Below, piece by piece: positions 3,701-64,000 of a stretch of DNA of 64,000 nt (its first letter is position 1; each line of letters begins with the position of its first letter). The notes beneath the pieces are model-generated. The model was given only the letters and a program-made list of their open reading frames with translations. It did not search any database and was not told where the DNA came from. The position numbers and the translations under genes are program-made. This DNA is from a virus. The stretch is from IMG/VR virus record IMGVR_UViG_3300042308_001371, positions 17,766 to 81,765 of that record, one strand, 5' to 3'.

Positions 3701-6246
3701 CAGTTAGAAACAATACTTCCTCTGCTCCTCTTAAAATTATAGGTAGTCTAACAATTAGCGGATCTCAGACAAATAGAGTTCGTGTTCAGGATATTGAGTT
3801 TACCCCAACTTCTGGTTATGCTTTAGTTATTAACGATACTCAAGGAAGACATTTATTTCAGAATTGTGGTTTTGTAAATGGATCAGTCGCTGGTCAAGCT
3901 GGAACAGGAGTAAATTTAACTAGTACTTATAGAAATTTTCTTGAATTTGTAGATTGTACAATTGAAGGTACTTTAAACATCGCAGGAACTCCCGTAGCTG
4001 GTACGACTGTTTTAATGTATCGTTGTAAGCTCGGTTATGCGAATGTTATTGTAAATAGTGCAAATATTGCCGTTGGAATATATGATACCTATGGTATCTA
4101 TGGACTTACTCATACCGCTGGTGCTTTGGCAATTACTGGGTTGTGGGGAATTGCTCAGACTGGATTTTTTAATTCAACTGCAACTTTAACTGCCACTAAC
4201 GTATTAAGTCTTTCAAACGTCTCACTACAAAAACCTGATTTAAGTTTTGTTGCTTTAAATAAAACAGGAACATGTTTTTATCAATTGATGAATGTACATC
4301 GTGGGGAAACTGCTGATGTTTTAAATGGCACGAGAGTTGTATATGGTCCAACTGCTACCGATGCCGGGTATAAAATGGGTACATCAGGAAACTGGCCCGC
4401 TGCAGTATCTAACGTGGCTGGGGCTTTAGATAGCTTAGCTGCTAATAAAATTGCTATAACCCAAAAAGCTGCAATAAATGGAGTAGCTTCTCTTGATGGA
4501 ACTGGTAAAGTTCCTCTTTCTCAGCTTCCTGCATCTACATTTGCAGCTGATGTATTAGAGTTTGCTAATTTAGCAGCATTTCCTATACCCGGAGCAGCGG
4601 GAATTGTATATGTAGCGTTAGATACTAATAAAATATATAGATGGAATACAACAGTTTATACTGAGTTATCTACAGCTCCAGTTACTTCTGTTAATGGAAA
4701 AACTAACGTAGTTACTCTAAATGCAATAGATGTGCCATTTTCTCCTACAGCAACTATTTTATCAACCGATGTACAGTCGGCTATTGTTGAAATTCAAGCT
4801 GCATCCACATCAACGGCTATTTATCAAGATACAAAAGAACCTACTGGATTTTTAAATAGAACAGATTCGGCTATTTCTTTTGTCGATGGTACTAGAATTT
4901 TTACAATTGCACCAGTTACAACTTCATTTGATTTTTATATTAAAGGTACTAAGTTTACAAAAAGTACTGCACAGAATTTAACTATTCCTAATTTATCAGG
5001 AAATCATTATATTTACTTTAATACTTCTGGAGTTTTAGAATCTACCCAAATATTTAGTAGTGATATTATTGAGCAGAATGCTTTTGTTTCAGTTATTTAT
5101 TGGAACACAGATTTAAATACCCATACGTATTTTGCAGAAGAGAGACATGGTATAACGATGGATGGGGCAACTCACATATACCTACATACTACTTTTGGAG
5201 CAAGGTACTTATCAGGATTAGCCTTACAAGGTTTTACGCCTGATGGTAATGGTAGTCTTGATGCACATGCTCAGTTTACCGCTGATGAAGGCTCTATTAG
5301 AGATGAAGATATACTTTTATCAAGTGCAGCTCAGGCTCAGATTCCTATTCTTTTCAGACAAGGCCAGTTATGGAGAAAAAAGGCAGCGGATGCATTTCCT
5401 TTAATCTATAGCGGTACAGCTGGATATACAGGAGCCAATGGAAGAATTCCATATAATCAATTCGTTGCGGGATCTTGGCAGTTAACACAAGTAACTAGCG
5501 GGGATTATGTATTAGTACATTTTTTTGCAACAAACGATAAAGAGAATCCTATTGTAGGTATTCAAGGTATTGCTCAATATAATAATGCTCCACAAGCAAA
5601 AGCTGCGGCAAGTACTGAAATTACTAGTCTATCTGGACTTCCTTTTGCAGAATTTGTAGCAATTGGTACAGTTTTGTTCCAAACTAATACTTATGCTAAT
5701 ACTCCAGATGCTAGGGTTGTGAGTGTAAATGGAGCTACTTACATTGATTTTAGAGGAACTCAGCTTTATACTCCAGCTGGAGAAGCGACTACTCATAGTC
5801 TTTTGTCAGGATTAAGTAACGATGATCATATCCAATACCATACTGATGCTAGAGGAGATATCAGATACTATACAAAAGCTCAGGTAGATACCCTAATAAC
5901 TGGAATAACATCTACGGGAGACATTGATGAGAAGTTGTTTAGCATTTCAAATTCACAGGCACTTCCAGACAATGTCCATAATTTTGTATTTTCAAATTCA
6001 ATTGTAAGAGCATTTGAAGCACTTGTATCTATTGAAATAGAGGCGACCGCTTCATTGTATGAGACTGTTAAGATTTCAGGAATTCAGAAAGGATCTGACT
6101 GGGATATCACCCTTATTTCTAGTGGGGATATTAGTGGTGTGGCCTTTAGTATTACTACTTCTGGTCAAATTCAGTATACGTCGGATAACGTGGCTGGTTT
6201 TGTTTCTGGAATCCTTAAATTTAGGGCAATTACAACCTCAGTATAA
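739..6246 (+). CDS. giant tail fibre (host-recognition) protein
   Basis: A 1835-residue fibre. A module of about 85 residues is present three times (about residues 24-104, 596-684 and a shorter copy at 1271-1333). It combines a segment like YLALDTNLCYRW with the phage-fibre signature VGLGNVDNTSDADKPIS. Between copies are KKYVDD hinge motifs typical of fibres, an SG-rich repeat at about 400-515 likely to form a beta-spiral, and a parallel beta-helix-like stretch at about 915-1160. Near the C-terminus is DDHIQYHTDARGDIRYYTK, common in fibre tips. The protein should trimerise and project from the tail. Internal triplication suggests growth by module duplication. Confidence 0.9.
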   Translation: MANTLLRIGYISGSGGGGGISQYPDLASFPPTGSVNVLYFAIDTAKLYAWDGATYVEASPSLVTSVNTQVGDVVLDKSDVGLGNVDNTSDADKPISDDTQAALDALDDRIIPIEDRAEVLTVYAYENNTQVYADGQPGIKDPSALIRDGWYFKNSIAGQKINWYYFDGTSQGSITLGDFKSAYAVMTFDAVSGAASPIIAIYTFPTGAGDVIPGFAHSRIVYDGPMTPTPVVGKQYLVYVGENPSVNPELPRINLSLIPGLSIGDKLPTEQILTISFGSSSGVAVNQIQYMVETLGLFSDPVKHEMDLRIRVASEDALDLKVAKAGDTMSGLLDITVTGAAALEANDIVIGNPWGAGYSVITGKDGSTDALYIQSADQLGTFAGNSSKPVTVGSGYTQGANSGAVEVLSAPAAVSGASGSVYIHSGDTVGATGFTTVKSGNSSSSSTGTAVLRSGDAAVSSGNTQVRSGNSVANSGVTSLLSGQSSGGSSGQVQVQSGAAAVASGNILISSGSAATRGLVQIDGSKLNMLTSIDMNSSKITELLDPTDNQDAATKKYVDDKDALKQSLIDKNQANGYVGLNGSTKIDSIYLPSYVDDVLEFASLSVFPLVGETGIIYLALDTNLCYRWAGSVYVEISAAPVISVNTKVGAVVLDKTDIGLDQVDNTSDADKQISDATQLALDDKVSKTGDTMTGQLTMQDDSILIDASISEGMPNTLLLESGTIQSTVINGDITSTSILYPYQHSIQTTDSVSTSNTSLTISAEHNAPILEVSIVNAETEMDSTVNILNSGLYVTNIDYTNNNELLGNFIAGSFIIETILADSSNSTIVGDPTGITLSSFDGDVTTEPLMPATDFHVTVKKYVDDADDLKENLANKSIDGTLASNSDTLYPSQKAVKTYVDSVSGGGTANFEASTYYHELHVNYDFTGATSDGSPYRPFKTTQAAVNAAQLQNIGGNTAILIHLKNDINIVENIAITNAVSNLYIMPAVRNNTSSAPLKIIGSLTISGSQTNRVRVQDIEFTPTSGYALVINDTQGRHLFQNCGFVNGSVAGQAGTGVNLTSTYRNFLEFVDCTIEGTLNIAGTPVAGTTVLMYRCKLGYANVIVNSANIAVGIYDTYGIYGLTHTAGALAITGLWGIAQTGFFNSTATLTATNVLSLSNVSLQKPDLSFVALNKTGTCFYQLMNVHRGETADVLNGTRVVYGPTATDAGYKMGTSGNWPAAVSNVAGALDSLAANKIAITQKAAINGVASLDGTGKVPLSQLPASTFAADVLEFANLAAFPIPGAAGIVYVALDTNKIYRWNTTVYTELSTAPVTSVNGKTNVVTLNAIDVPFSPTATILSTDVQSAIVEIQAASTSTAIYQDTKEPTGFLNRTDSAISFVDGTRIFTIAPVTTSFDFYIKGTKFTKSTAQNLTIPNLSGNHYIYFNTSGVLESTQIFSSDIIEQNAFVSVIYWNTDLNTHTYFAEERHGITMDGATHIYLHTTFGARYLSGLALQGFTPDGNGSLDAHAQFTADEGSIRDEDILLSSAAQAQIPILFRQGQLWRKKAADAFPLIYSGTAGYTGANGRIPYNQFVAGSWQLTQVTSGDYVLVHFFATNDKENPIVGIQGIAQYNNAPQAKAAASTEITSLSGLPFAEFVAIGTVLFQTNTYANTPDARVVSVNGATYIDFRGTQLYTPAGEATTHSLLSGLSNDDHIQYHTDARGDIRYYTKAQVDTLITGITSTGDIDEKLFSISNSQALPDNVHNFVFSNSIVRAFEALVSIEIEATASLYETVKISGIQKGSDWDITLISSGDISGVAFSITTSGQIQYTSDNVAGFVSGILKFRAITTSV

Positions 6247-6303: not shown

Positions 6304-7149
6304 ATGGCACAGGTAAAGCCTAATCCAAATTCATTCTATGATCCGGGCTTAATTGTCAAGGAAATCCATGACTTACATGCTAAGTCTATTAGGGTATCCG
6401 ATACTAGATCCGTAGTAGATAAGTTTTATACTCACTTTAGGGTTTTATACACTGAGCTAAATTTACCATCAGAAGTTTCTTATTTTAGAGGAACAAGATC
6501 TCATACAACTATAATAGGTTGTGTTGATGATGTTGAAGCCTCCCTCCAAAATTCATATATTAAAATATACTCCTGTCCAGATAATACTCCATTCCATATT
6601 TGGTTTAATGTAGATAATCTAGGAGTTCCCCCAACAATTCCCGGATCTACTGCAATTGAGATTCCTATAAATAAAAATGAAGGATCTTCTGTTATATCTA
6701 TGGCTGTGGGTTTAATTATAAACTCTTTGTTTAAATCTGATTTTTCAGTATCTAGATCTAATTCGGTTGTTGAAATTACAGCGGTTGGAATGGGTGAGAT
6801 ACTCGATTCATCAGACGAAGGAACTGGGTTTGCGTTAGTAAACTCTAGAGGAGAGCAGGAATTAGCTAATTATATTCAAATAGGATATCAGGATCTGCAT
6901 CCTGTATATAAAGGACAAGTTTTAAAAAATTACATCTTTAATGTATTTTCTGGACAATTTGAAATTAAAGAAGAGCTTCCAACAACTATTCAAGAAGTGG
7001 TCTGGGATGAAATTGTAACAACATTTCCACTTGAAAATCAAGAGCTGTATTCTTATAAATATAACTCTAATTTAGTTCAAGAAATGCTAGTAACTTATAT
7101 TGATGCTACAAAAAAAGCAATAGTATCTATTCAAAAGACAAGGTATTAA
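6304..7149 (+). CDS. structural-region protein, unknown function
   Basis: A 281-residue soluble protein, first gene after late promoter copy 1, with AGAGGT as ribosome site. It is rich in beta-strand-like sequence and has no signal peptide, membrane segment or catalytic motif I recognise. Features include a Tyr-rich C-terminal third (LYSYKYNSNLVQEMLVTYI). It sits between two fibre-type genes, so a virion or fibre-assembly role is inferred from context only. Confidence 0.65.
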   Translation: MAQVKPNPNSFYDPGLIVKEIHDLHAKSIRVSDTRSVVDKFYTHFRVLYTELNLPSEVSYFRGTRSHTTIIGCVDDVEASLQNSYIKIYSCPDNTPFHIWFNVDNLGVPPTIPGSTAIEIPINKNEGSSVISMAVGLIINSLFKSDFSVSRSNSVVEITAVGMGEILDSSDEGTGFALVNSRGEQELANYIQIGYQDLHPVYKGQVLKNYIFNVFSGQFEIKEELPTTIQEVVWDEIVTTFPLENQELYSYKYNSNLVQEMLVTYIDATKKAIVSIQKTRY

Positions 7150-7729: not shown

Positions 7730-10234
7730 ATGGCCCAGCAAATTAAAAAGAAGTTTATCCAAAACGACGCAGTCGATGGACAAAAACTCAAACTTCAAAA
7801 AGACCAATCAATTCGTGGTCAGAAACAGGACGGATCAGAAGTCGAATTACTAAAAATGGATGGTAGCGATAAGCTAGTATCTGGTGGACAAGAGCTTGCT
7901 TTTAAAGAAGTTGTAGACGCTCAAGTTTCAGATCTTCAAGATAAACTTGATTCTGAAGAAGCTTCTCGTATTTCTGGAGATGAAACGCTTCAGTCAAATT
8001 TGAATGTTGAACAGTCTGCTAGAGAACAAGCTGATCAAGGTCTTCAATCTTCAATTAGTTCTGAAGAGGCTCGTGCTGAAAGTGAAGAATCTCGTATTGA
8101 ATCTAAATTAGATAGCATGATTGTTTCTGAAGAGTCTGCTCGTGAAAGTGCGGATCAAGGCTTGCAGTCTCAAATTAACACAGAAAAAGGTCGCGTTGAC
8201 GCTATCCTTTTAGCTTCTGATGCTGATAAAGATTCATTTGCTGAAATCGTTCAATTGATTAACTCTGTTGATACTGAGAATGATTCTGCTTTTGGTTCTT
8301 ACGTTCTTTCAAATAATGCAGCTTTAGCTTCTGAAGTTTCTTCTCGTGAGCAAGGTGATCAAGATCTTCAGTCTAACATTGATGCCGAAGAGTCTCGTGC
8401 TAGTGACGAAGAATCTCGTATTGAGTCTAAGTTTGACGGTATGCTCGCTTCTGAAGAAGCTGCTCGTATTGCTGGTGACTCTGCTGAGCAAACTCGGGCT
8501 ATGGGTATTGAATCTAGCTTACAATCTCAGATTACTCAAGAAGTTTCTGATAGACAATCTGCTATTTCTAGCGAAGAATCTGCTCGTCAGTCTGCAGACT
8601 CTAGCTTACAGTCTAGCTTAAATTCTGAAATTTCTGATCGCCAAGCTGCGGTTTCTGCTGAAGCTTCTGCTCGTCAAGCTGCAGATTCAGATCTTCAATC
8701 TCAACATGATGATCTCGATGGTTATGCTCAAGATGTTCGCTCTGACTTGGATGATCTAGATGGTTATGCTCAAGACATTCGTTCTGATTTAGATCAGGAA
8801 ATTGTTGATAGAGCTGCGGCGGTCTCTGCTGAAGCTTCTGCTAGACAATCTGCTGATTCTAGCTTACAATCTAGTCTGAGTTCAGAAGTTAGTCGTGCTC
8901 AATCTGCTGAGTCTACTGAGCAAGCTGCTCGTATTGCAGGAGATGCTTCTTTACAAAGCTCTTTAGATTCTGAAATTTCTTCTAGACAATCAGCTGATTC
9001 TCAACTTCAGTCTAATATTGATTCAGAACAAGCTGCTCGTATTGCTGGGGATTCTTCTACTTTACAATCTTCTAAAGATTATACAGATGGAAAAATCTCT
9101 CTTGTAATGAGTAATTTGGATACGGAAGCTCTAGATTCATTAGTTGAAATTGTTACAGCTTTCCAAAATGCCGACGGTGATTTGAACGATACAATTTCTA
9201 GTTTATCTTCTGCTGCTTCTTCTGCACTTGCTGCTGAGCAAGCTGCTAGAATTTCTGGAGATGAGTCACTTCAATCAAATCTTGATGCTGAATCTGATCG
9301 TGCTATGTCTAAAGAATCTGAATTAGAAGATTCTATTGATTCTGAACAGTCTAGAGCTATGGACGCTGAGAGTTTGATTCAATCGAATCTCGATGCTTAT
9401 TCTCTTCAGAATGACATTAATCTCAATTCTATCCATGAGCAAATGCAAATCAATGATGAGCGTGCTGGTGCAGCAGAAGAAGGTCTCCGAACCGAACTTG
9501 AAGCTGAAATTGAGCGCGCAATGGCTGCTGAGCAAGGTCTTGAAGACAACAAAATGAATCGCGGCGGTGATTCAGTAGAAGGTGAATACTTCTTTGATGA
9601 TGGTGAGGGTGTTGTCTCTTCTATTTTGGGAACTGGATTTAAGGTTGAACAAGATCTTGGATATAAAGTTCTTAAAACTGAAATTAAGTCAGATAGAATT
9701 AACTTTAGCTCTCAGAATGGTAGCTTAGTTGTTTCTGGTGATCAGATTGCTCTTTCTCACATTGTTCCAGAAGCATCAGGACTTCCTGAAGCTGGCTTTG
9801 ATGTATTTGTTGGTACTGACAACAATACTATGCGTATGGGACAATTTTATAACTATGAAGGCGTAACACAGCCTTATCTTCCTGTTGAAGGACATGAGTT
9901 TACTGTTAAAGCTTATGTTGATCAGCAAGATTCAGCATTGTCTGACAGAATTACAGCTCTTGAAGTTCAAACTGATGGTCCTTACTTTCAAAAACAAAAG
10001 TTTGTTATTGACGAAACTTCTGAGTTAAGTTCTATTGAGCTTTCTCATGAGTGTATGGAAAATTCACTTACTGTTTGTGTTGGTCGTTTGATGGTTCACA
10101 AAGACGAAGATTACTCTGTTTCAGTTGTAGACGGTAAATCCGTTCTGACATGGATGGGTGATTTTGCTCAAGGTGAATCTGAAGGTATCGAAGAAGGCGA
10201 TGTAATTTTTGTTACATTCGCTAGAGAAGTTTAA
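7730..10234 (+). CDS. coiled-coil fibre protein rich in Ser/Gln/Ala/Glu repeats
   Basis: An 834-residue fibre. About residues 60-610 are dominated by degenerate repeats of the type ARQSADSSLQSSL-SEISDRQ, which predict a long trimeric coiled coil. The stretches ADKDSFAEIVQLINSVDTEN and LDTEALDSLVEIVTAFQ resemble spacer motifs of other phage fibres. The C-terminal 80 residues form a beta domain (LTVCVGRLMVHKDEDYSV) like that of the 125-residue gene upstream. Codon choice is strikingly biased to TCT, GCT, CGT and CAA compared with neighbours, as in highly expressed genes. AAGGAG is the ribosome site and a strong terminator follows. Confidence 0.85.
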   Translation: MAQQIKKKFIQNDAVDGQKLKLQKDQSIRGQKQDGSEVELLKMDGSDKLVSGGQELAFKEVVDAQVSDLQDKLDSEEASRISGDETLQSNLNVEQSAREQADQGLQSSISSEEARAESEESRIESKLDSMIVSEESARESADQGLQSQINTEKGRVDAILLASDADKDSFAEIVQLINSVDTENDSAFGSYVLSNNAALASEVSSREQGDQDLQSNIDAEESRASDEESRIESKFDGMLASEEAARIAGDSAEQTRAMGIESSLQSQITQEVSDRQSAISSEESARQSADSSLQSSLNSEISDRQAAVSAEASARQAADSDLQSQHDDLDGYAQDVRSDLDDLDGYAQDIRSDLDQEIVDRAAAVSAEASARQSADSSLQSSLSSEVSRAQSAESTEQAARIAGDASLQSSLDSEISSRQSADSQLQSNIDSEQAARIAGDSSTLQSSKDYTDGKISLVMSNLDTEALDSLVEIVTAFQNADGDLNDTISSLSSAASSALAAEQAARISGDESLQSNLDAESDRAMSKESELEDSIDSEQSRAMDAESLIQSNLDAYSLQNDINLNSIHEQMQINDERAGAAEEGLRTELEAEIERAMAAEQGLEDNKMNRGGDSVEGEYFFDDGEGVVSSILGTGFKVEQDLGYKVLKTEIKSDRINFSSQNGSLVVSGDQIALSHIVPEASGLPEAGFDVFVGTDNNTMRMGQFYNYEGVTQPYLPVEGHEFTVKAYVDQQDSALSDRITALEVQTDGPYFQKQKFVIDETSELSSIELSHECMENSLTVCVGRLMVHKDEDYSVSVVDGKSVLTWMGDFAQGESEGIEEGDVIFVTFAREV

Positions 10235-16600: not shown

Positions 16601-18560
16601 TGCCAGATCCTTGGAGAGAGTTATAAATAAAGATCCTAACTCTCCAGTTAATGCGTATTATATTTCTGGTCTTAACGACTTGCAGGGTATTTTACTTTTA
16701 GAATCTAGATCTCTAATAGATGATCCTTTCTATGTTGGATTTAGTGAGCAGTTCTCAGATGGGTTTGGAAATCCAATAGCTGTATTCGAGCCTAATATTC
16801 CGGTAGCAAAAACAATTAAGGATCTTACATCTCCGGGGGTTATAACTACAACTACTTCTCATAGTTTTACACCAAACCAACAAGTATATTGTTTCATAAA
16901 ACAAACTTCTTTACCAGCACTTTTATCTGGATCAAAGATAATAGAAACTACTCCCGGAGTAGATACTCTTACAATTTATGGATTTAGTTTTTCTGGAGCA
17001 CAAATAACTTCTTTCGAATCAGCCGTAGTATTCCCAGCTGATGTAGTTTCTGATAATTCGGTAAATCCGAATAGAGTTTATTTCTCTAAGATATACCAAC
17101 CAGAGGCTGTGCCGCTAGTTAACTACATTGATATTGGACCAAGAGACAAGAAAATACAAAGAATCATTGCATTAAGAGATAGTCTTGCAGTACTCAAAGA
17201 AGAGGGCGTCTACATCATATCAGGACAGTCTGCACCAAACTTTTCTGTGCGTCTTTGTGATTCCTCTGCCTTAACCCTTGCTCCAGATACAGCTGTTAAC
17301 TTAAATAATCTAGTATATGTATTAACAAGTCAAGGAGTAGTTACAGTATCCGAAACTGGCGTTCAAGTAATGTCTAGAAATATTGAAAATAAAATTCAAG
17401 AAGTTACAAATTCTAGGTTTGATTATAAGCTTATGAGTTGGGGAATGTCCTCTGAATCAGATAGATGCTATCTTCTTTGGCTTCCTGAGAAGACTACCGA
17501 TGGATATGCTACGCAAGCTTTTAGATATAATACTTTCACAAGAGCTTGGACTAGGTGGACTAAACCTGCGAACTGCGGTGTAGTCAATCCTCTAGATGAT
17601 AAGATGTATCTAGGAGATTCATCTGGAAGACCATATGTATTGCAAGAAAGAAAAAACTTTGAAAGACAGGATCATTCTGACAGAGAAATAATTAGAAGTA
17701 TTGTAGCAAATTCTGCAAATGGAACTACTTACACACTCTCATCGTCTGTAGAATTAGCAGCTGGAGATGTGCTAACTCAAATACAGTATCTTGATATAAA
17801 TAAGTTTAATAGATTCCTTAAAAAATTAGATAGAGATGGATTCTCTTCTCATACTGAGGAGAAATACGTAACATTAAAAGCATCTGCCGGAGACAGTCTT
17901 GGATCAAAATTACAAGAAGTTGAAGTAAAGTTATTATCTGATGGAATTATAATACCACATAGCTCTGGATCAGATATCGCAATAGATATTGCAACTAACT
18001 TTAACGCAATAGTTGCTATCCTTAACCTATCTACAACTTTAACTAATTTTAAAGACTATAAATCAGTAACAGATCCTTTAACTTATGAAGTACTTATTAC
18101 TGGTGTTAATACCATAATGAATACTATTACAGTGAAGGCAGAGAATAAGTTTATAGTGGGCGATGTTTCTATATTTAAAGGTATCAAGTGTGTTGTTCAA
18201 TATGCCCCACAACACTTCGGAAAACCAGAATCAACTAAGCAAATATCAGAAGGTACTTTTATATTTGATCAGAATAATTTCTGGGGTGGATCTGTTGCCT
18301 ATTCTTCAGATAGATCGTATGACTTTAAGAGTATAGATTTTCAAGGAAGAGGTCCGGGATATTGGGATGGATATAATTGGGCTAATGCTACTTTTGGAGG
18401 AGAGGGCAATGAAGTTCCTTTCAGAACTTTTGTTCCTTCAGACAAGGCTAGATGTAGGTATCTCCATGTTCAGTTTACTCATATTAATGCAAGAGAGCAA
18501 TGGAAACTAATTGGAGTATCTTTAGAACCTAGAGAAGTCTCCACTAGAGGATATAGATAA
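13692..18560 (+). CDS. large tail tubular protein B-like nozzle protein
   Basis: A 1622-residue protein with a GTG start four bases after the previous gene. The N-terminus (INRGLVTSPNELARPDGAAD, NVVEPRRGFAEFG) matches the T7 gp12-type tail tube/nozzle family, and the C-terminal half contains the beta-propeller-like segments typical of it (ALRDSLAVLKEEGVYIISG, LTSQGVVTVSETGVQVMSR, FTRAWTRWTKP). It is twice the length of T7 gp12 (794 residues). The extra length is several copies of a beta module with an H-G/S-F turn (TIASHGYTDGTKVRLFG, LSNHGFATNDLVTIDG, IKNHSFFNNDQVTFS). It forms the distal tail tube. Confidence 0.85.
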   Translation: MPILTINRGLVTSPNELARPDGAADVLDNCVIDSDNVVEPRRGFAEFGNVTDDDSVVKQLLTYKGRVLRHFANKLSFDSTGNGSFLNFSGTYNELVSRLRIRYFELNSNLYFTTSEGIKKISAKSADDFSNSAEYITKAGGVKATGLELNLVPSASGFLPAQSKVAYKVLWARKDVNGNIIRGVPSSRHVITNTSQDLNVGESFTATILDAGAGIHKSFDATSSISDGPQITFLAAAVNITDNTIALTAGATDHNYQTNDLIKLLQNGVNPLPVGLAVGNYYVIRVDTNKIKLKTTTTGSEVDITSVAAAGTSGIVENTTTGKTITIASHGYTDGTKVRLFGILANELDKTQTYYIRNKTTNTFQLSLEPASVIITLTKKVGTSEIYSGISNNDFFLFDSLTNKFAVWFNISGTDPSPTSSLLLGRQLIEIPIYNITLKNKINYASKIAEILFSISDVEIEVASEVVTITNRDGGDVLDASQGSLDITYGTISTVYDGQTSIGIPSNTQVITTVPSGINSKDFFYEVYRTAITTVPTGLTLNDIDPGEEFQKIYESPVSLTDVIPSEVTFDDYIPETFREGGLYLYVNPVTGESALQANEAPPIAHDVAIFKGSAFYANTKEVHRLQFSMLSVFPYNSGSSKLHVGNSTKMSTYTFIGQNEIIQFTAKKKSETVGGSYFDIYNAQNKIKYRTWFDKGSIVFNFDQTAINSTTEEITLSNHGFATNDLVTIDGTTLPGGLLKKSYYAIRVSSNTIKLSDSINGSAINLDSSSGSASISHISKAPSVDNCLLLKIPLLLPIYEDTVEGSVDAFADAFFDINDFNINDNIYHLFDSFYDINGSTETINIKNHSFFNNDQVTFSQNCPDGILIDTPYYVINKTNNSFGISTSIGGPSVDITPKSGAGKVTFVAPSSIVKLVYTDNGDVSPVVQSSPVTGWSDPLVLQQGDGEDASLNQVLLSGLSSQSLSIEDTARSLERVINKDPNSPVNAYYISGLNDLQGILLLESRSLIDDPFYVGFSEQFSDGFGNPIAVFEPNIPVAKTIKDLTSPGVITTTTSHSFTPNQQVYCFIKQTSLPALLSGSKIIETTPGVDTLTIYGFSFSGAQITSFESAVVFPADVVSDNSVNPNRVYFSKIYQPEAVPLVNYIDIGPRDKKIQRIIALRDSLAVLKEEGVYIISGQSAPNFSVRLCDSSALTLAPDTAVNLNNLVYVLTSQGVVTVSETGVQVMSRNIENKIQEVTNSRFDYKLMSWGMSSESDRCYLLWLPEKTTDGYATQAFRYNTFTRAWTRWTKPANCGVVNPLDDKMYLGDSSGRPYVLQERKNFERQDHSDREIIRSIVANSANGTTYTLSSSVELAAGDVLTQIQYLDINKFNRFLKKLDRDGFSSHTEEKYVTLKASAGDSLGSKLQEVEVKLLSDGIIIPHSSGSDIAIDIATNFNAIVAILNLSTTLTNFKDYKSVTDPLTYEVLITGVNTIMNTITVKAENKFIVGDVSIFKGIKCVVQYAPQHFGKPESTKQISEGTFIFDQNNFWGGSVAYSSDRSYDFKSIDFQGRGPGYWDGYNWANATFGGEGNEVPFRTFVPSDKARCRYLHVQFTHINAREQWKLIGVSLEPREVSTRGYR

Positions 18561-27665: not shown

Positions 27666-27768
27666 GCCTCTCCTCCATTCCAGTATAAAGCTTATGACAC
27701 GCTAAGAATCCTATCATAAATGATAAGAACATAGAAGTTATAAATGTCCCCCAGTTCATATCCTTCAT
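27616..27768 (-). CDS. small membrane protein overlapping the beta-barrel gene
   Basis: A 50-residue frame. Its ATG shares the A of the ClpX-like gene stop (TAATG). Residues 5-25 form a membrane segment (WGTFITSMFLSFMIGFLACH) with a Cys at its end, a possible but imperfect lipobox. The rest is short and polar. It overlaps the next gene by 50 bases in another frame, so the pair recalls nested spanin genes. The function is not proven. Confidence 0.55.
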   Translation of the reverse strand: MKDMNWGTFITSMFLSFMIGFLACHKLYTGMEERRDIIDLRGNNTSLHGP

Positions 27769-28694
27769 TAGTATACCCACTTAGGCTTACCACTCAGCAC
27801 TACCATGGAGTCTAGCGTGAATTTCTTTGGTTTAATTGCTAAACTAGGAGCTTCAAACTGAGCGTTTAGCAACGCTTCATCTAATACGCTATGCAAGCCT
27901 CTAGCTCCTAATCCCTTCTCAATAGCCTTCTGAGCTATGATATTAATAGCACTATCCTGTACTACAAGCTCAATACCTTCGCTCAAAAACCACTCTTTAA
28001 ATGAGTTTAAGATAGATCCCTTGGAGTCACGTAGGATCTTCCTGTAATCATCAAATTTAAGCTCCTGAAGCTGCGTGATAACTGGGAATCTTCCCAAGAA
28101 TTCTGGGATCATTCCAAAATCCATAAGAGTAGGAACTGAAGCAGACTCTAGACCCACAAAAGCTCCAGAGCATATAAACATAATATCTTTAGTATTCATT
28201 TTTTTATCGTACTCCCCATTCTGAGAATATCTAGAAATATATGGAACATCGCTACCTTCTAGTAGTTTTAAAAGAGATTGCTGTACGCCAAGTCCGTTAA
28301 CATCAGCTCCTCCGTCTTGACTAGTCTTCTTCTTAATTTTATCTATTTCATCAATGTAGATAATTGATTTAGAAGCTTTCTTTTCATCTCCCTCACAAAT
28401 ACCTAGCAGATCGGTAATAAGTTCTTCAACACTCCTACCCTGATATCCAGAAGAAGTAAACTGAGTTGCATCGCTTGTCAAGAAACTTACTCCAAGAATT
28501 CTAGATAAGATAGAAACTAGGTAAGTCTTACCACATCCAGTAGGTCCAATTAGAAGCACGTTAGATTTTTTTATTGTACTACCATTCATTCTTTTAAAAT
28601 GATTATATGCAGCAACTGATAAAGATCTTTTAGTCTTTTCATGACCAATCACGTACTCATCTAATTCTTTTTTAATTTGCTCTGGGGTTTTCAT
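27768..28694 (-). CDS. ClpX-like AAA+ unfoldase lacking the zinc domain and ClpP-docking loop
   Basis: A 308-residue AAA+ ATPase closest to ClpX: Walker A GPTGCGKT (50-57), pore-loop GYQGRSVEE (83-91, usually GYVG), Walker B YIDEID (113-118), GVQQSLLKLLEG (136-147), arginine-finger box EFLGRFP (198-204) and sensor 2 GLGARGLHS (261-269). It starts at the AAA+ module, with no N-terminal C4 zinc-binding domain. Between GAFVGL and FGMIPEF only about ten residues remain, so the IGF loop that docks ClpP is missing, and the RKH loop is replaced. It is probably an unfoldase or remodeller acting without ClpP. Confidence 0.9.
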   Translation of the reverse strand: MKTPEQIKKELDEYVIGHEKTKRSLSVAAYNHFKRMNGSTIKKSNVLLIGPTGCGKTYLVSILSRILGVSFLTSDATQFTSSGYQGRSVEELITDLLGICEGDEKKASKSIIYIDEIDKIKKKTSQDGGADVNGLGVQQSLLKLLEGSDVPYISRYSQNGEYDKKMNTKDIMFICSGAFVGLESASVPTLMDFGMIPEFLGRFPVITQLQELKFDDYRKILRDSKGSILNSFKEWFLSEGIELVVQDSAINIIAQKAIEKGLGARGLHSVLDEALLNAQFEAPSLAIKPKKFTLDSMVVLSGKPKWVY

Positions 28695-52666: not shown

Positions 52667-53854
52667 TTAAAAAGGTATATCAGAGTTTTCAAATGCTTTA
52701 GCTTTAGCTTTAGCTTCCCTCTCTTCTTTAGCCGTTTTATATGCATCTTTTGCAAGCCTAGCTTCTCTTGTCTTTTCTACTAATTGTTTATTCTCTAGTA
52801 CATAAGCCTTCATGTTAACATCTGTCGAAAATTGAGCAACCTCTCTTAAGGGCAGCAAAAAAGCATACAAATTTTCTACAGGGCAGTCTAAAAGAAATGC
52901 CACTAGATTTTTAGCATTATTGTCAGTTAGTGTAGTTGCTTTAAGTCTAATTACTAGCTCCTCAGAAACATTAGAGCAAACTGTAGCGATGATATCGGCT
53001 CTAGGTGCTTCAATATCTTCTAGAGTAACTGGGTTTTTAAAATTCTTAATAAAACTAGTTCTACTCTTTTCATAATTATCTAGAATATCTTTTGCATCAA
53101 CAATTTTTACTTGGTTTTCCTTCCACGAACTATAGGCAATCATACTAGTAGTTCCTACAATGCCCATACCTGCTTCTCTAAAAAGATTCTCTGGCATACT
53201 GGTTAGTTCCAATTTTTGAAGTCTATCCCATGATCTTCGTGAAGGTTTAACAAAATCTAAGGTAACAGCTTTAAGATCAGTTTCTTCTAGAAGTTTTGTC
53301 TGTTGACGTAAGAAATCACTTACTGGACTATTAGTATATCGACCAGTCATATATTCATGAAATTCTTCATGAGTAGGATCTAGATTAATATGAACAAAAC
53401 GATCTGCAAAAGCCTTATCTGCAAAGTCAAGAACAGAATAGTCATCGGTGGCCGGATTCATTGCCATGATAATGGCAGAATCTTTCGGTAACGTATAATC
53501 ATGTAAGGTTCCTTCTAGAGCCAATTGAAAGATAGCTTGGAGTAGTTCTTTTGATGCTCTGTTAAGCTCATCAAAGAAAAGAATTGACTTAGGATTTTTA
53601 GGTAACTTTTCAGGATGGACAAAGCTAACTGATAAAGCTTTACCAGAACTATCCCTATTAAATTCTGGAAGACCTAGCAAGTCTCCATTGTCGGACATTT
53701 GACCAAGAAAGAATGGGTGAAATGTATAACCATTTTCCTTAGCGTACTGAGCTACTACTGAAGACTTCCCAATCCCATGCTTTCCGATAATATTAGGCAC
53801 AAGCCCAGACTCAATAATGAATGGAAGTGATTGTTTAAGTTGTGTGATATTCAT
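52667..53854 (-). CDS. MoxR-family AAA+ ATPase
   Basis: A 395-residue protein. Walker A IIGKHGIGKSSVV, Walker B SILFFDELNRASKE, sensor 1 AIIMAMNPATDDYSVLDF, arginine finger region FADRFVHINLD. The position of a loop before DELNRA and the C-terminal helical lid fit MoxR/NorQ-like remodellers. The last 35 residues are a Lys/Glu/Ala helix. Such ATPases act with VWA partners; the partner gene follows at 51380. Confidence 0.88.
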   Translation of the reverse strand: MNITQLKQSLPFIIESGLVPNIIGKHGIGKSSVVAQYAKENGYTFHPFFLGQMSDNGDLLGLPEFNRDSSGKALSVSFVHPEKLPKNPKSILFFDELNRASKELLQAIFQLALEGTLHDYTLPKDSAIIMAMNPATDDYSVLDFADKAFADRFVHINLDPTHEEFHEYMTGRYTNSPVSDFLRQQTKLLEETDLKAVTLDFVKPSRRSWDRLQKLELTSMPENLFREAGMGIVGTTSMIAYSSWKENQVKIVDAKDILDNYEKSRTSFIKNFKNPVTLEDIEAPRADIIATVCSNVSEELVIRLKATTLTDNNAKNLVAFLLDCPVENLYAFLLPLREVAQFSTDVNMKAYVLENKQLVEKTREARLAKDAYKTAKEEREAKAKAKAFENSDIPF

Positions 53855-59234: not shown

Positions 59235-59942
59235 TTAGTTATGAATAACAAAGCCTGTTTTATCTTTTTTTGCCTCGCCCTTTGCCTTTAGTGCTACAAT
59301 TTTTCCCTTAATATCCAAAAATCTTAGGTCATGTAAATCGCCGTCAATTGCGCCAAGCTCATCAACTACCCTGCTTACATTAGAATAAACCGCTGCTACA
59401 TTAACGCCTAGTCTCAACATTTTCTCGCATTCAATATGATTCGCCCTTGACTCTTTACGGCTGAAAGTAAGGTGGTAATTGTTCCATTTTCCTGTTAATG
59501 CATCCATTCTAGTATGATTCGGAGTGTAGTCGTAAAACTGGACATCCGAAAAGACTTCAAAGATATTTTTACCATCCTTAACCATAATTTCTTCCCATGA
59601 AATATCACTCGTTCCATTCAATCGAATCGCTGGAATAAGATTTTTTCTTTTTGCTTCCCTTAATACGCCCTCAATTGACCAAACAAGGGAAGTGATAAAC
59701 GCCTCTTTGTTATCTCTAAAAAATTCAGTTTTTGCAATACGCGCTTTTTTAACGCTGTTAAATTTTCCCCTACCTGCACTATAAAGGCAAGCTTCCTTAC
59801 ATCCTTTAGAGGCAAATTTGCAAACATTTATACCCTCGACAAGATTAGCCGGTGCCATGTAAAGAATTCCAGTGAGATATCCTAAATCCTCGCCCTTAGA
59901 AGTTTTTGCGTTTGCAGTAGTCAATAATTTTTTATGTTTCAT
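59235..59942 (-). CDS. GP88-family phage protein
   Basis: A 235-residue protein. NVCKFASKGCKEACLYSAGR (C-x6-C-x3-C) and KNLIPAIRLNGTSDISWEEI match the actinophage gp88 family found in many phages. The Cys triad suggests a metal or Fe-S site, but the family has no proven function. Expressed from the TTGACG promoter at 59973. Confidence 0.82.
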   Translation of the reverse strand: MKHKKLLTTANAKTSKGEDLGYLTGILYMAPANLVEGINVCKFASKGCKEACLYSAGRGKFNSVKKARIAKTEFFRDNKEAFITSLVWSIEGVLREAKRKNLIPAIRLNGTSDISWEEIMVKDGKNIFEVFSDVQFYDYTPNHTRMDALTGKWNNYHLTFSRKESRANHIECEKMLRLGVNVAAVYSNVSRVVDELGAIDGDLHDLRFLDIKGKIVALKAKGEAKKDKTGFVIHN

Positions 59943-61932: not shown

Positions 61933-61948
61933 TGGCACAGACTTTGCA
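61933..61948 (+). promoter_or_regulatory. sigma-54-like element 1
   Basis: TGGCACAGACTTTGCA: GG and GC separated by exactly ten bases, as in the -24/-12 consensus YTGGCACG-N4-TTGCW. Isolated from the other copies. Confidence 0.6.
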
Positions 61949-62050
61949 GGGAATGAATTGAGTACCTGTAAAGGCATAAAATAAGGTGTCACATAAAGGC
62001 AGCTTAGTTTTCTTGCGCCCGCATATTAATTCCCTGTAAGTATCTGAAAA

Positions 62051-62084
62051 TTGGAAAGGGGACCAAGCTCAAGCCTAGTCCCCT
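62051..62084 (-). terminator. GC-rich hairpin, weak terminator candidate
   Basis: Stem GGGGAC/GTCCCC (62058-62063 with 62078-62083) around a 14-base loop, followed on the - strand by TTTCCAATTTTC. The poor T run makes it uncertain; it would end the short transcript through 62167-62256. Confidence 0.35.
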
Positions 62085-62166
62085 CGGGTGATATGTATAA
62101 GCTCGCCACGGGCATTTTGAAGACTAGACAAAGTCGCCCATAGCTCACTCGATAAGGTGTATTAAA

Positions 62167-62256
62167 TCACTGCTCAAAGGCTTTTAAAACAGTCTCAGAA
62201 CGTGATAATAAGTTTACTAAGGTTAATGTAATCACTAGCATAATATAAGTTTTCAT
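62167..62256 (-). CDS. tiny membrane peptide
   Basis: A 29-residue frame (KTYIMLVITLTLVNLL, then a polar tail) with AGAGGGGATTAG upstream, a strong ribosome site of the type used in this arm. Single membrane segment. Size limits confidence. Confidence 0.45.
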   Translation of the reverse strand: MKTYIMLVITLTLVNLLSRSETVLKAFEQ

Positions 62257-62377
62257 CTAATCCCCTCTTAAAACAATATTCTCACACTATGCATCATAAT
62301 GCAATAGCCAAACGAAATAAATATTTGTCAAGCGGTTACTCATAAATTCGTAACTGGTAAGGCCTCAGTATTGCACT

Positions 62378-62394
62378 AGCAAAGCATGTGCCAA
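62378..62394 (-). promoter_or_regulatory. sigma-54-like element 2
   Basis: On the - strand TTGGCACATGCTTTGCT: GG-N10-GC spacing exact. It would fire toward the tiny membrane peptide at 62256. Confidence 0.65.
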
Positions 62395-62418
62395 TTGGAA
62401 GATCCCCCTAAAGAAACA

Positions 62419-62434
62419 TGGCATGAGTTTTGCT
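62419..62434 (+). promoter_or_regulatory. sigma-54-like element 3
   Basis: TGGCATGAGTTTTGCT matches YTGGCAYG-N4-TTGCW except for the usual T/C choice. + strand, 63 bases before element 4. Confidence 0.7.
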
Positions 62435-62480
62435 TATGCAAAGCCAACATCCAGCGTATATTCCAGCAAAAGAAAATGTT

Positions 62481-62497
62481 TTGGCATGATCTTTGCG
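62481..62497 (+). promoter_or_regulatory. sigma-54-like element 4
   Basis: TTGGCATGATCTTTGCG: exact GG-N10-GC. The following leader holds an extended -10-like TGCTACAAT at 62521, so sigma70 and sigma54 starts may overlap. Confidence 0.7.
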
Positions 62498-62527
62498 TTA
62501 TATACAGCTTAGTTCTTTTTTGCTACA

Positions 62528-62539
62528 ATGAGGGTAAGA
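62528..62539 (+). repeat. leader block ATGAGGGTAAGA, copy A
   Basis: The 12 bases after a -10-like TACAAT. The same 12 bases recur at 63794 after TATGAT, and a variant ATGAGGATAAGC lies at 61742. Each copy precedes sigma-54-like elements, so the whole cassette seems repeated. Confidence 0.6.
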
Positions 62540-62613
62540 CAAGCGCAACAGGGCGAGCTTGGAAAATAAGCCCAACAGTAAACAAGTTTAGGGAAGGAGC
62601 GAGCTTAAAAAAA

Positions 62614-62630
62614 TAGGCACAGCTCTTGCA
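62614..62630 (+). promoter_or_regulatory. sigma-54-like element 5
   Basis: ATAGGCACAGCTCTTGCA: exact GG-N10-GC. It faces element 6, separated by only two bases (TC), giving the palindrome CTTGCA-TC-TGCAAG. Confidence 0.65.
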
Positions 62631-62632
62631 TC

Positions 62633-62649
62633 TGCAAGCCCCATGCCAA
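62633..62649 (-). promoter_or_regulatory. sigma-54-like element 6
   Basis: On the - strand TTGGCATGGGGCTTGCA. Head-to-head with element 5. It lies just beyond the terminator of the gene at 62691. Confidence 0.68.
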
Positions 62650-62652
62650 GCC

Positions 62653-62674
62653 AAAAAAACTCCCCGAAGGGAGC
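62653..62674 (-). terminator. terminator of the rightmost - strand gene pair
   Basis: On the - strand CTCCC-TTCG-GGGAG followed by seven T. It lies 17 bases after the stop at 62691. Confidence 0.88.
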
Positions 62675-62690
62675 TTAGCGATTTGGAGAG

Positions 62691-62945
62691 TTATAAGATG
62701 TTGACTGTGGTGGCTGCTGCTTTAAGCATGTTGGGCTTTAGAATGCAATCTGTTAACATTTGAAGTTGACCATTATCCTCAACGCTTAGACCGAAGTGGT
62801 TGAAAAGCATGTCATTGATTAGATCAGTCTCATTGCCTCTGTATCCAAGCTCGTCAAGCTCATAGTCAAGGTCAGAGAACAATGCCACGAATTCTTTTTG
62901 TTGTTTCTTGTTAAGCATTCTAAGTATCTGTAATAAGTAAATCAT
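62691..62945 (-). CDS. small early protein, unknown
   Basis: An 84-residue protein. The start at 62945 follows AAGGGAG; an ATG 48 bases upstream lacks a site. IYLLQILRMLNKKQQKEFVA and ELDELGYRGNETDLINDMLF are helical. Its own promoter (62976) and terminator make it a separate early unit. Confidence 0.65.
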   Translation of the reverse strand: MIYLLQILRMLNKKQQKEFVALFSDLDYELDELGYRGNETDLINDMLFNHFGLSVEDNGQLQMLTDCILKPNMLKAAATTVNIL

Positions 62946-62975
62946 ATAGCTCCCTTTGTTGTGTTGTCGTGATTC

Positions 62976-63003
62976 ATTATAGCAGAATGACAATCGGTGT
63001 CAA
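62976..63003 (-). promoter_or_regulatory. strong early sigma70 promoter
   Basis: On the - strand: TTGACA, 16-base spacer ending TGC, TATAAT. Perfect boxes and an extended -10. Confidence 0.85.
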
Positions 63004-63005
63004 CT

Positions 63006-63254
63006 TTATTCCTCCCACAACGCTCCGATATCGTCCGAGAATATACCTTGCTGCACTTCTACCCATCGCACATTGGTCACGTTATTCGCCCCAAAATGAT
63101 ACCTTAAAAGAGCCGTAGCGAATTGTTCAAGCATTTCAGGGGATAAGGCTTTTACAGTTGCATCAACGTCAAAAGATCGTCTCATTGATTTAAAAGTCCT
63201 TTTTCCTTTGAGCTTGATACTAGCATGTGCAGATATTCTAAAAATTGGTTTCAT
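63006..63254 (-). CDS. small early protein, unknown
   Basis: An 82-residue protein: basic N-terminus (KLKGKRTFKSMRRSFDVD), a helix (PEMLEQFATALLRYHFG) and an acidic end (FSDDIGALWEE). AAGGGAG precedes the ATG. No family recognised. Confidence 0.65.
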   Translation of the reverse strand: MKPIFRISAHASIKLKGKRTFKSMRRSFDVDATVKALSPEMLEQFATALLRYHFGANNVTNVRWVEVQQGIFSDDIGALWEE

Positions 63255-63284
63255 TGTTTGCTCCCTTGTTGTTTGTCATGCTTC

Positions 63285-63312
63285 ATTGTAGCACATTGAC
63301 GATTAGCGTCAA
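63285..63312 (-). promoter_or_regulatory. strong early sigma70 promoter
   Basis: On the - strand: TTGACG, 16-base spacer ending TGC, TACAAT. Extended -10. Confidence 0.8.
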
Positions 63313-63683
63313 GCCCTTTCGTTAACTATCTCCTCGAATCTTTTCCAAGCATTGTCTGCAAGTTCCGTGCCATCATAGAGTGCCTTCATTAATTGGCAAT
63401 TGTCATCATGCCCAAGCCTGAACCAAGTATGGCATAGTTCATGCAGGACAACATGTGTCAGTGCTTCGCTTGCAACATCCTCGCCAATTGCTATGATGTT
63501 TTTCCCAAGCCAAGCCAAGCCCCCTTCACTTGTTATTATCTTGACTTCTACCCTAGGCGCATTTATGTAGATCCTACGGGCTTTATAAATGATATCCATT
63601 ACTTGTCTACGCTTGTCAAAGTACCCTTCTGATTTTACTCGCCAGTCCTGATGAACCACTTCGTTTTTTCTAAGCTTATTCAT
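63309..63683 (-). CDS. HExxH metallopeptidase-like early protein
   Basis: A 124-residue protein. ALTHVVLHELCHTWFRLGHD holds H-E-L-C-H and a third ligand His five residues on (H-x-x-x-x-x-H-D), the spacing of SprT/archaemetzincin-like or M48-like folds. The N-terminal part is alpha/beta (DIIYKARRIYINAPRVEVKI). It is the first gene read from the right end and probably the earliest expressed. Its substrate is unknown. Confidence 0.75.
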   Translation of the reverse strand: MNKLRKNEVVHQDWRVKSEGYFDKRRQVMDIIYKARRIYINAPRVEVKIITSEGGLAWLGKNIIAIGEDVASEALTHVVLHELCHTWFRLGHDDNCQLMKALYDGTELADNAWKRFEEIVNERA

Positions 63684-63704
63684 TTGATGCCCCTTGATAT
63701 CCTC

Positions 63705-63733
63705 ATCTTAGCATTTTTGATTCAAAGTGTCAA
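63705..63733 (-). promoter_or_regulatory. early sigma70 promoter for the rightmost gene
   Basis: On the - strand: TTGACA, 17-base spacer ending TGC, TAAGAT. Confidence 0.75.
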
Positions 63734-63793
63734 ATTATGCTGCAAGTCCCTGTCATCATTGACTTTGCTGCGAATCGTTACACCTATGGTATG

Positions 63794-63805
63794 ATGAGGG
63801 TAAGA
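63794..63805 (+). repeat. leader block ATGAGGGTAAGA, copy B
   Basis: Identical to the 12 bases at 62528, again just after a -10-like box. Followed 54-65 bases on by the array. Confidence 0.6.
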
Positions 63806-63837
63806 AACAAACAAGGGGAAAACAATGGGAATATAAT

Positions 63838-63854
63838 AGCAATAATCATGCCAA
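63838..63854 (-). promoter_or_regulatory. sigma-54-like element 7
   Basis: On the - strand TTGGCATGATTATTGCT. Exact GG-N10-GC. Points toward the metallopeptidase gene. Confidence 0.7.
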
Positions 63855-63858
63855 GGAC

Positions 63859-63875
63859 TAGGCATGTCTCTTGCA
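63859..63875 (+). promoter_or_regulatory. sigma-54-like element 8
   Basis: TAGGCATGTCTCTTGCA on the + strand; faces element 9 across CTTGCA-TC-TGCAAG, the same palindrome as elements 5/6. Confidence 0.68.
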
Positions 63876-63877
63876 TC

Positions 63878-63894
63878 TGCAAGGCCTGTGCCAA
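63878..63894 (-). promoter_or_regulatory. sigma-54-like element 9
   Basis: On the - strand TTGGCACAGGCCTTGCA. Exact spacing and full GGCAC. Confidence 0.72.
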
Positions 63895-63903
63895 GCCAGT
63901 GCA

Positions 63904-63920
63904 TGCAAGGCCGGTGCCAA
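63904..63920 (-). promoter_or_regulatory. sigma-54-like element 10
   Basis: On the - strand TTGGCACCGGCCTTGCA. Exact spacing. Confidence 0.72.
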
Positions 63921-63928
63921 GTGGCCCA

Positions 63929-63945
63929 TGCAAGAACGATGCCAA
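63929..63945 (-). promoter_or_regulatory. sigma-54-like element 11
   Basis: On the - strand TTGGCATCGTTCTTGCA. Exact spacing. Confidence 0.7.
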
Positions 63946-63972
63946 GCCACGGACGGCTGAGCTGTGCGGCTA

Positions 63973-64000
63973 GGGGGGGGGGGGGGGGGGTGTGGGGGGT
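63973..64000. other. poly-G end, probable sequencing artefact
   Basis: A run of 18 G, then TGTGGGGGGT. Such tails arise from two-colour sequencing reads that run off the template. It marks the contig end rather than a biological feature. Confidence 0.85.

Follow-up and report, generated by a model that had tools for sequence, protein, structure and literature searches.

What function could be served by a dense cluster of promoter-like elements lying outside genes in a viral genome? This question is raised by the right end of a 64,000-nucleotide stretch of DNA, hereafter the window, taken from the IMG/VR virus record IMGVR_UViG_3300042308_001371 (positions 17,766 to 81,765). There, the pattern [T/A]GGCAY-N5-TTGC, with GG and GC ten bases apart, is matched eleven times between positions 61933 and 63944, five times on the plus strand and six times on the minus strand. 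A previous reading made from the letters alone (the sequence-only reading) had listed these elements, identified them as the -24/-12 consensus of RpoN (sigma-54), and proposed that they are either stress-gated promoters or a decoy for the host sigma factor. All eleven were located again by pattern search with the same strand split; several of the starts first listed are shifted by one base, as that list was made up of 16-base elements. Our results point to an array of docking or titration sites for host sigma-54, predicted to be bound by it and to act by occupancy, a reading in which we place middling confidence.

Such a density of matches is far above expectation, as had been claimed. A first-order Markov model expects 0.5 matches per 81,765-base contig and 0.06 per 2.25-kb region, and the reversed control pattern has no match in the whole 81,765-base contig, where the pattern itself gives 17 matches. 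These fall at 14 distinct places, since the two contig ends share about 140 bases within the array; the three exact matches beyond the eleven all lie in coding DNA (63358-63372, minus; 60305, plus; 4723, minus). A chance origin of the array is ruled out by the Markov expectation, the reversed control and a control scan with an N7 spacer (see below).

The elements had also been placed in non-coding DNA. Naive overlap with open reading frames (ORFs) is an ambiguous test of this, because spurious ORFs cover the arrays. The 76-amino-acid ORF across 62386-62616 is interrupted by 3-4 stops in the relatives L013 and L014. The ORFs across 63722-63973 find only a piecewise match in the near-identical L013 (one piece with a stop), and in L014 no more than two short fragments, both from a single one of these ORFs, are matched. 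Gene 62691-62993, unlike the ORFs overlapping the array, stays open in relatives. This comparison supports the array being non-coding DNA.

Several lines of evidence bear on the identity of the motif. A position-specific scoring matrix (PSSM) was built from 23 Salmonella intergenic sites with chromatin immunoprecipitation support (PMC3844500), and 9 of its 13 best matches over the window are array elements, scoring 13.9-20.9. The training set itself spans 14.9-23.9, and by chance 64 kb should contain about 0.8 matches with a score of at least 14. Spacing is a further line: at 220 loci, fetched by N5 pair patterns, the N5 spacer occurs at 945 sites and each other length from 0 to 12 at 4-32. 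Since these loci came from N5 patterns, the unbiased spacer test is the independent N7 control scan, which gave 20 contigs vs at least 120 with N5. Finally, positions that had not been searched on were assessed at 382 unique sites, which represent 85 groups of array-bearing viral contigs: C or T (Y) just before TGG is found at 82% of the sites, A or G (R) right after TGGCAY at 98%, and A or T (W) right after TTGC at 90%. These preferences are similar in the window family, in the L100 group and in all other groups, with a weaker R in the window family (79%). Bacterial sigma-54 promoters, for instance those of the E. coli and Salmonella regulons (PMC3844500, PMC4591121), agree with the viral elements in sequence, spacing and flanking preferences; they are, however, mostly single chromosomal sites with an activator, whereas the viral arrays are dense and contain convergent pairs, which hardly occur in bacterial genomes.

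Relatives of the window phage, located through the large terminase (TerL), carry arrays in the same region, a clustering that the sequence-only reading had put forward as supportive. It had also named the loss of the GG/GC dinucleotides in relatives as contrary evidence; in the three relatives compared, the core is kept. Changes affect 0/110 core positions vs 7% of spacers plus flanks in L013 (Fisher p 8e-4), 12/100 vs 30% in L014 (Fisher p 6e-5) and 2/30 vs 31% in L010 (Fisher p 0.013), and the fixed bases of the elements are under selection in relatives. As judged from the Salmonella matrix, the conserved core, the N5 spacing and the unselected positions, the RpoN identification stands, and the motif is strongly supported as a sigma-54 -24/-12 recognition element.

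How might such an array act? RpoN, either by itself or within the RNA polymerase holoenzyme, would occupy high-affinity sites in the non-coding DNA of the early region, and the holoenzyme on these -24/-12 elements would form a stable, silent closed complex without starting transcription. With eleven sites in each genome and replication raising the number of copies, the array could then hold or titrate scarce host sigma-54, and the host regulon of this factor would be silenced. Binding by RpoN, titration and a benefit to the phage are what we infer. According to PMC4591121, sigma-54 holoenzyme is transcriptionally inactive when it binds promoter DNA, and its affinity for promoter DNA is reported at about 3 nM (PMC7064336), two properties that suit occupancy. 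Docking or titration is favoured because convergent pairs lie only a few bases apart, plus-strand elements of the window face no gene on their strand, sigma-70-like promoters point outward, no signature of initiation is seen and the phage encodes neither RpoN nor an activator. For these reasons, the decoy fits the geometry better than the stress-gated promoters proposed with it.

Several observations nevertheless weigh against occupancy. One relative, L021 (TerL 64% identical), has one exact site only, and the number of sites varies among relatives. In some lineages all elements point in one direction, away from the terminase, a bias that a pure sponge does not need. A single infecting genome brings 11 sites only, and titration would call for replication or for little sigma-54 in the host. 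The window array was also searched for sites of DnaA, LexA, Fur and NtrC, and none turned up.

Table 1. Features of the array region, in window coordinates.
Feature	Coordinates	Strand	Remarks
Sigma-54-like element TGGCACAGACTTTGC	61933..61947	+	PSSM 15.8
Sigma-54-like element TGGCACATGCTTTGC	62379..62393	-	PSSM 17.7
Sigma-54-like element TGGCATGAGTTTTGC	62419..62433	+	PSSM 19.8
Sigma-54-like element TGGCATGATCTTTGC	62482..62496	+	PSSM 19.5
Sigma-54-like element AGGCACAGCTCTTGC	62615..62629	+	PSSM 12.5; convergent pair 1, first half (gap 4)
Sigma-54-like element TGGCATGGGGCTTGC	62634..62648	-	PSSM 14.1; convergent pair 1, second half
Intrinsic-terminator-like hairpin	62657..62676	-	ends gene 62691-62993, just before 62634 element
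Sigma-70-like promoter TTGACA-N16-TATAAT (consensus, 12/12 match)	62976..63003	-	upstream of early gene 62691-62993
Sigma-70-like promoter TTGACG-N16-TACAAT	63285..63312	-	upstream of early gene 63006-63254
Extra sigma-54-like match TGGCACGGAACTTGC	63358..63372	-	PSSM 16.4; within ORF 63309-63683, absent from the sequence-only reading
Sigma-70-like promoter TTGACA-N17-TAAGAT	63705..63733	-	upstream of early gene 63309-63683
Sigma-54-like element TGGCATGATTATTGC	63839..63853	-	PSSM 20.9
Sigma-54-like element AGGCATGTCTCTTGC	63860..63874	+	PSSM 12.2; convergent pair 2, first half (gap 4)
Sigma-54-like element TGGCACAGGCCTTGC	63879..63893	-	PSSM 13.9; convergent pair 2, second half
Sigma-54-like element TGGCACCGGCCTTGC	63905..63919	-	PSSM 15.6
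Sigma-54-like element TGGCATCGTTCTTGC	63930..63944	-	PSSM 15.4
G-tract adjoining array, terminase side	63973..63999		contig breaks here; ends overlap ~140 bases

The internal geometry of the arrays is ordered. At the 220 loci, tandem elements have a period of 26-28 bases, convergent pairs are separated by gaps of 3-8 bases, most often 4 or 7, and divergent pairs peak at 8 and 10; minimum distances are clear in these arrangements. The convergent module with a gap of 4 is present twice in the window (62615/62634 and 63860/63879), and the first base of elements 62615 and 63860 is A, not T.

This geometry bears on the possibility that the elements are working sigma-54 promoters, at which the activity of a host bacterial enhancer-binding protein (bEBP) would gate early phage transcription by stress or nitrogen state. 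The elements do match functional promoters by PSSM, several lineages have all of them directed from the terminase toward the early genes, and NtrC-like sites lie close to a few arrays. However, convergent pairs 3-7 bp apart cannot all be used simultaneously, no gene on the same strand faces the plus-strand elements of the window, and the early genes beside the window array have sigma-70-like promoters of their own (Table 1). Sigma-70-like promoters that flank arrays point outward in 44/56 cases (p 2e-5). Neither a +1 preference nor AT richness between -9 and -1 was found at 79 terminal array elements, and the arrays have no conserved enhancer site nearby beyond the G/C tract. Judged by initiation signature and downstream gene, the elements do not qualify as functional sigma-54 promoters. 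No RpoN domain or bEBP was found in the window phage or in the array phages searched, several of whose records are fragments (20 records for the bEBP), and a bEBP could still come from the host. A phage-encoded sigma-54 or activator was set aside on these results; the AAA+ genes 27768-28694 and 52667-53854 are of ClpX-like and AAA_5 type. The directional bias, strong in raw counts (224 vs 97), is 9 vs 4 over TerL clusters, which is not significant, and it was dropped as evidence for promoters. Taken together, we consider working promoters unlikely.

The array could alternatively be involved in the control of DNA transfer, host proteins bound to it on early-entering DNA stopping or regulating DNA entry. 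This idea, which we regard as improbable, is drawn by analogy with the role proposed for the injection stop signal of T5, whose repeats, palindromes and DnaA boxes possibly engage host components (PMC13250531). It is supported by the cultured Vibrio T5-like phages PG07, X1, phi 3, JSF10, D254 and SJ1, which hold 2-13 exact sites each. Their sites fall in the early-transfer (first-step-transfer, terminal-repeat) region near A1, A2 and dmp, with 5 exact sites there in PG07 and 6 in X1; this region was recognised by A1, A2 or dmp genes or by annotated repeats, where annotated. SJ1 carries no annotation, and both of its ends hold copies of most of its sites. However, the PG07 sites are located in both non-coding parts of the region and not just at its end, and the early-transfer region of T5 has no exact sigma-54 site. 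The window phage also differs in having no homolog of A1, A2 or dmp, and two-step entry is not known for it. No exact sites were found in Proteus phage PM135.

Least probable is recognition by a phage protein, either at a small-terminase packaging site (cos/pac) or at iterons for a phage replication initiator: in TerL-bearing contigs the arrays do lie mostly 0.8-2.6 kb upstream of terL, often next to a C-tract, and tandem repeats by DnaA boxes in more than 100 contigs look like iteron origins, but the window array is about 5.9 kb away from terL, a phage-specific site is not expected to follow the sigma-54 consensus at positions outside the search pattern, and the same motif and consensus accompany TerL proteins down to 23% identity and mutually dissimilar candidate small terminases (TerS), so that a small-terminase site is disfavoured, the motif not tracking the family among four candidates, one of them confirmed as TerS by profile.

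Returning to docking or titration by occupancy, the arrays are widespread among unrelated viruses. At least 120 viral-contig stretches contain the convergent-pair pattern (viral scan counts are lower bounds), vs 19 stretches in 257 Gb of bacterial and archaeal genomes, scanned with a slightly narrower gap range, and the array-bearing viral contigs form about 85 independent groups. RpoN is encoded in 5/5 of the bacterial genomes examined that hold a convergent pair. Several of the 19 bacterial or archaeal pairs are perfect hairpins; the viral pairs are not, and RNA hairpins or terminators were rejected as their explanation, the spacers being non-complementary. A few bacterial pairs look genuine, for instance that of the Methylovulum locus L267, where a sigma-54 array with an adjoining terminase-like gene lies at 6776-6960 in a probable prophage near the pheST region. 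The best TerL match of the window phage in a cultured phage is 29% identical (Silvanigrella phage), and no DNA similarity to phage records was found for the array region and the right part of the window. The sequence-only reading knew of no phage with such an array, and we found no description of sigma-54 site arrays in phages in open-access full texts, subscription papers being outside the search.

Boxes for other host regulators accompany sigma-54 elements in some phages. The early-transfer regions of the Vibrio T5-like phages also hold DnaA boxes and, in some of the phages, Fur-like boxes. The first-step-transfer DNA of T5 is likewise non-coding with boxes for host proteins (DnaA, LexA-like, Fur-like), to which its Vibrio relatives add sigma-54 sites. 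In T5 (L303, AY543070), the non-coding early-transfer DNA at 6113-6230 and 9405-9720 contains DnaA boxes, a tandem Fur-like cluster and two perfect LexA-like boxes (CTGTATAAATATACAG), in part within the annotated injection stop signal. Sigma-54 elements preceded by a DnaA box, most commonly at a distance of 11 bases, were recorded in at least 120 viral-contig stretches vs 22 for the N7 control, about half of these 22 resembling one coding sequence. In L043 (10194-10273), L129 (3560-3645) and many other contigs, tandem DnaA boxes, often in 11-base steps, run into sigma-54 elements, an arrangement that may be a replication origin. LexA-like (three), NtrC-like (three) and Fur-like boxes stand beside sigma-54 arrays in different contigs (L253 1844-2303; L251 1930-2251; L138 2800); the enrichment of such boxes beside arrays is suggestive, the motif lists having been picked after looking.

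One tentative generalisation is that many phages carry cassettes in which consensus sites for master regulators of the host are gathered (sigma-54, joined in some phages by DnaA, LexA, Fur and NtrC), in non-coding DNA that belongs to the early region or enters early, and that these cassettes capture the proteins by occupancy, as a DNA-encoded, protein-free takeover device; we see this as conceivable rather than probable. Known nucleic-acid decoys, such as datA, which is a DNA decoy for DnaA, and intragenic sigma-54 sites, likewise consist of clustered consensus sites with a proposed role in buffering or titrating a regulator; unlike them, the phage array is virus-borne, would target a sigma factor and replicates with the phage. 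The decoy role of intragenic sigma-54 sites has been suggested in E. coli (PMC4591121). Phage takeover of host transcription is known to proceed via proteins, and a DNA array capturing an alternative sigma factor would, if true, be a different strategy and a new way of handling host gene control. This strategy would be widespread in uncultured phages, the cultured Vibrio T5-like phages would offer a direct test of it, and it would point to a role for the repeat-rich non-coding DNA, itself a puzzle, of the T5-like early-transfer region.

Two features of the surroundings can finally be mentioned. A G or C tract often adjoins the array on the terminase side (6/16 over TerL clusters), and the contig break at the G-tract of the window could mark the physical end of the genome or reflect a break in sequencing; the contig of the relative L017 likewise begins within its array. 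In addition, window gene 59235-59942 belongs to phrog_1617, a family of unknown function, and a cluster of genes related to it is found near arrays in 12/81 groups.

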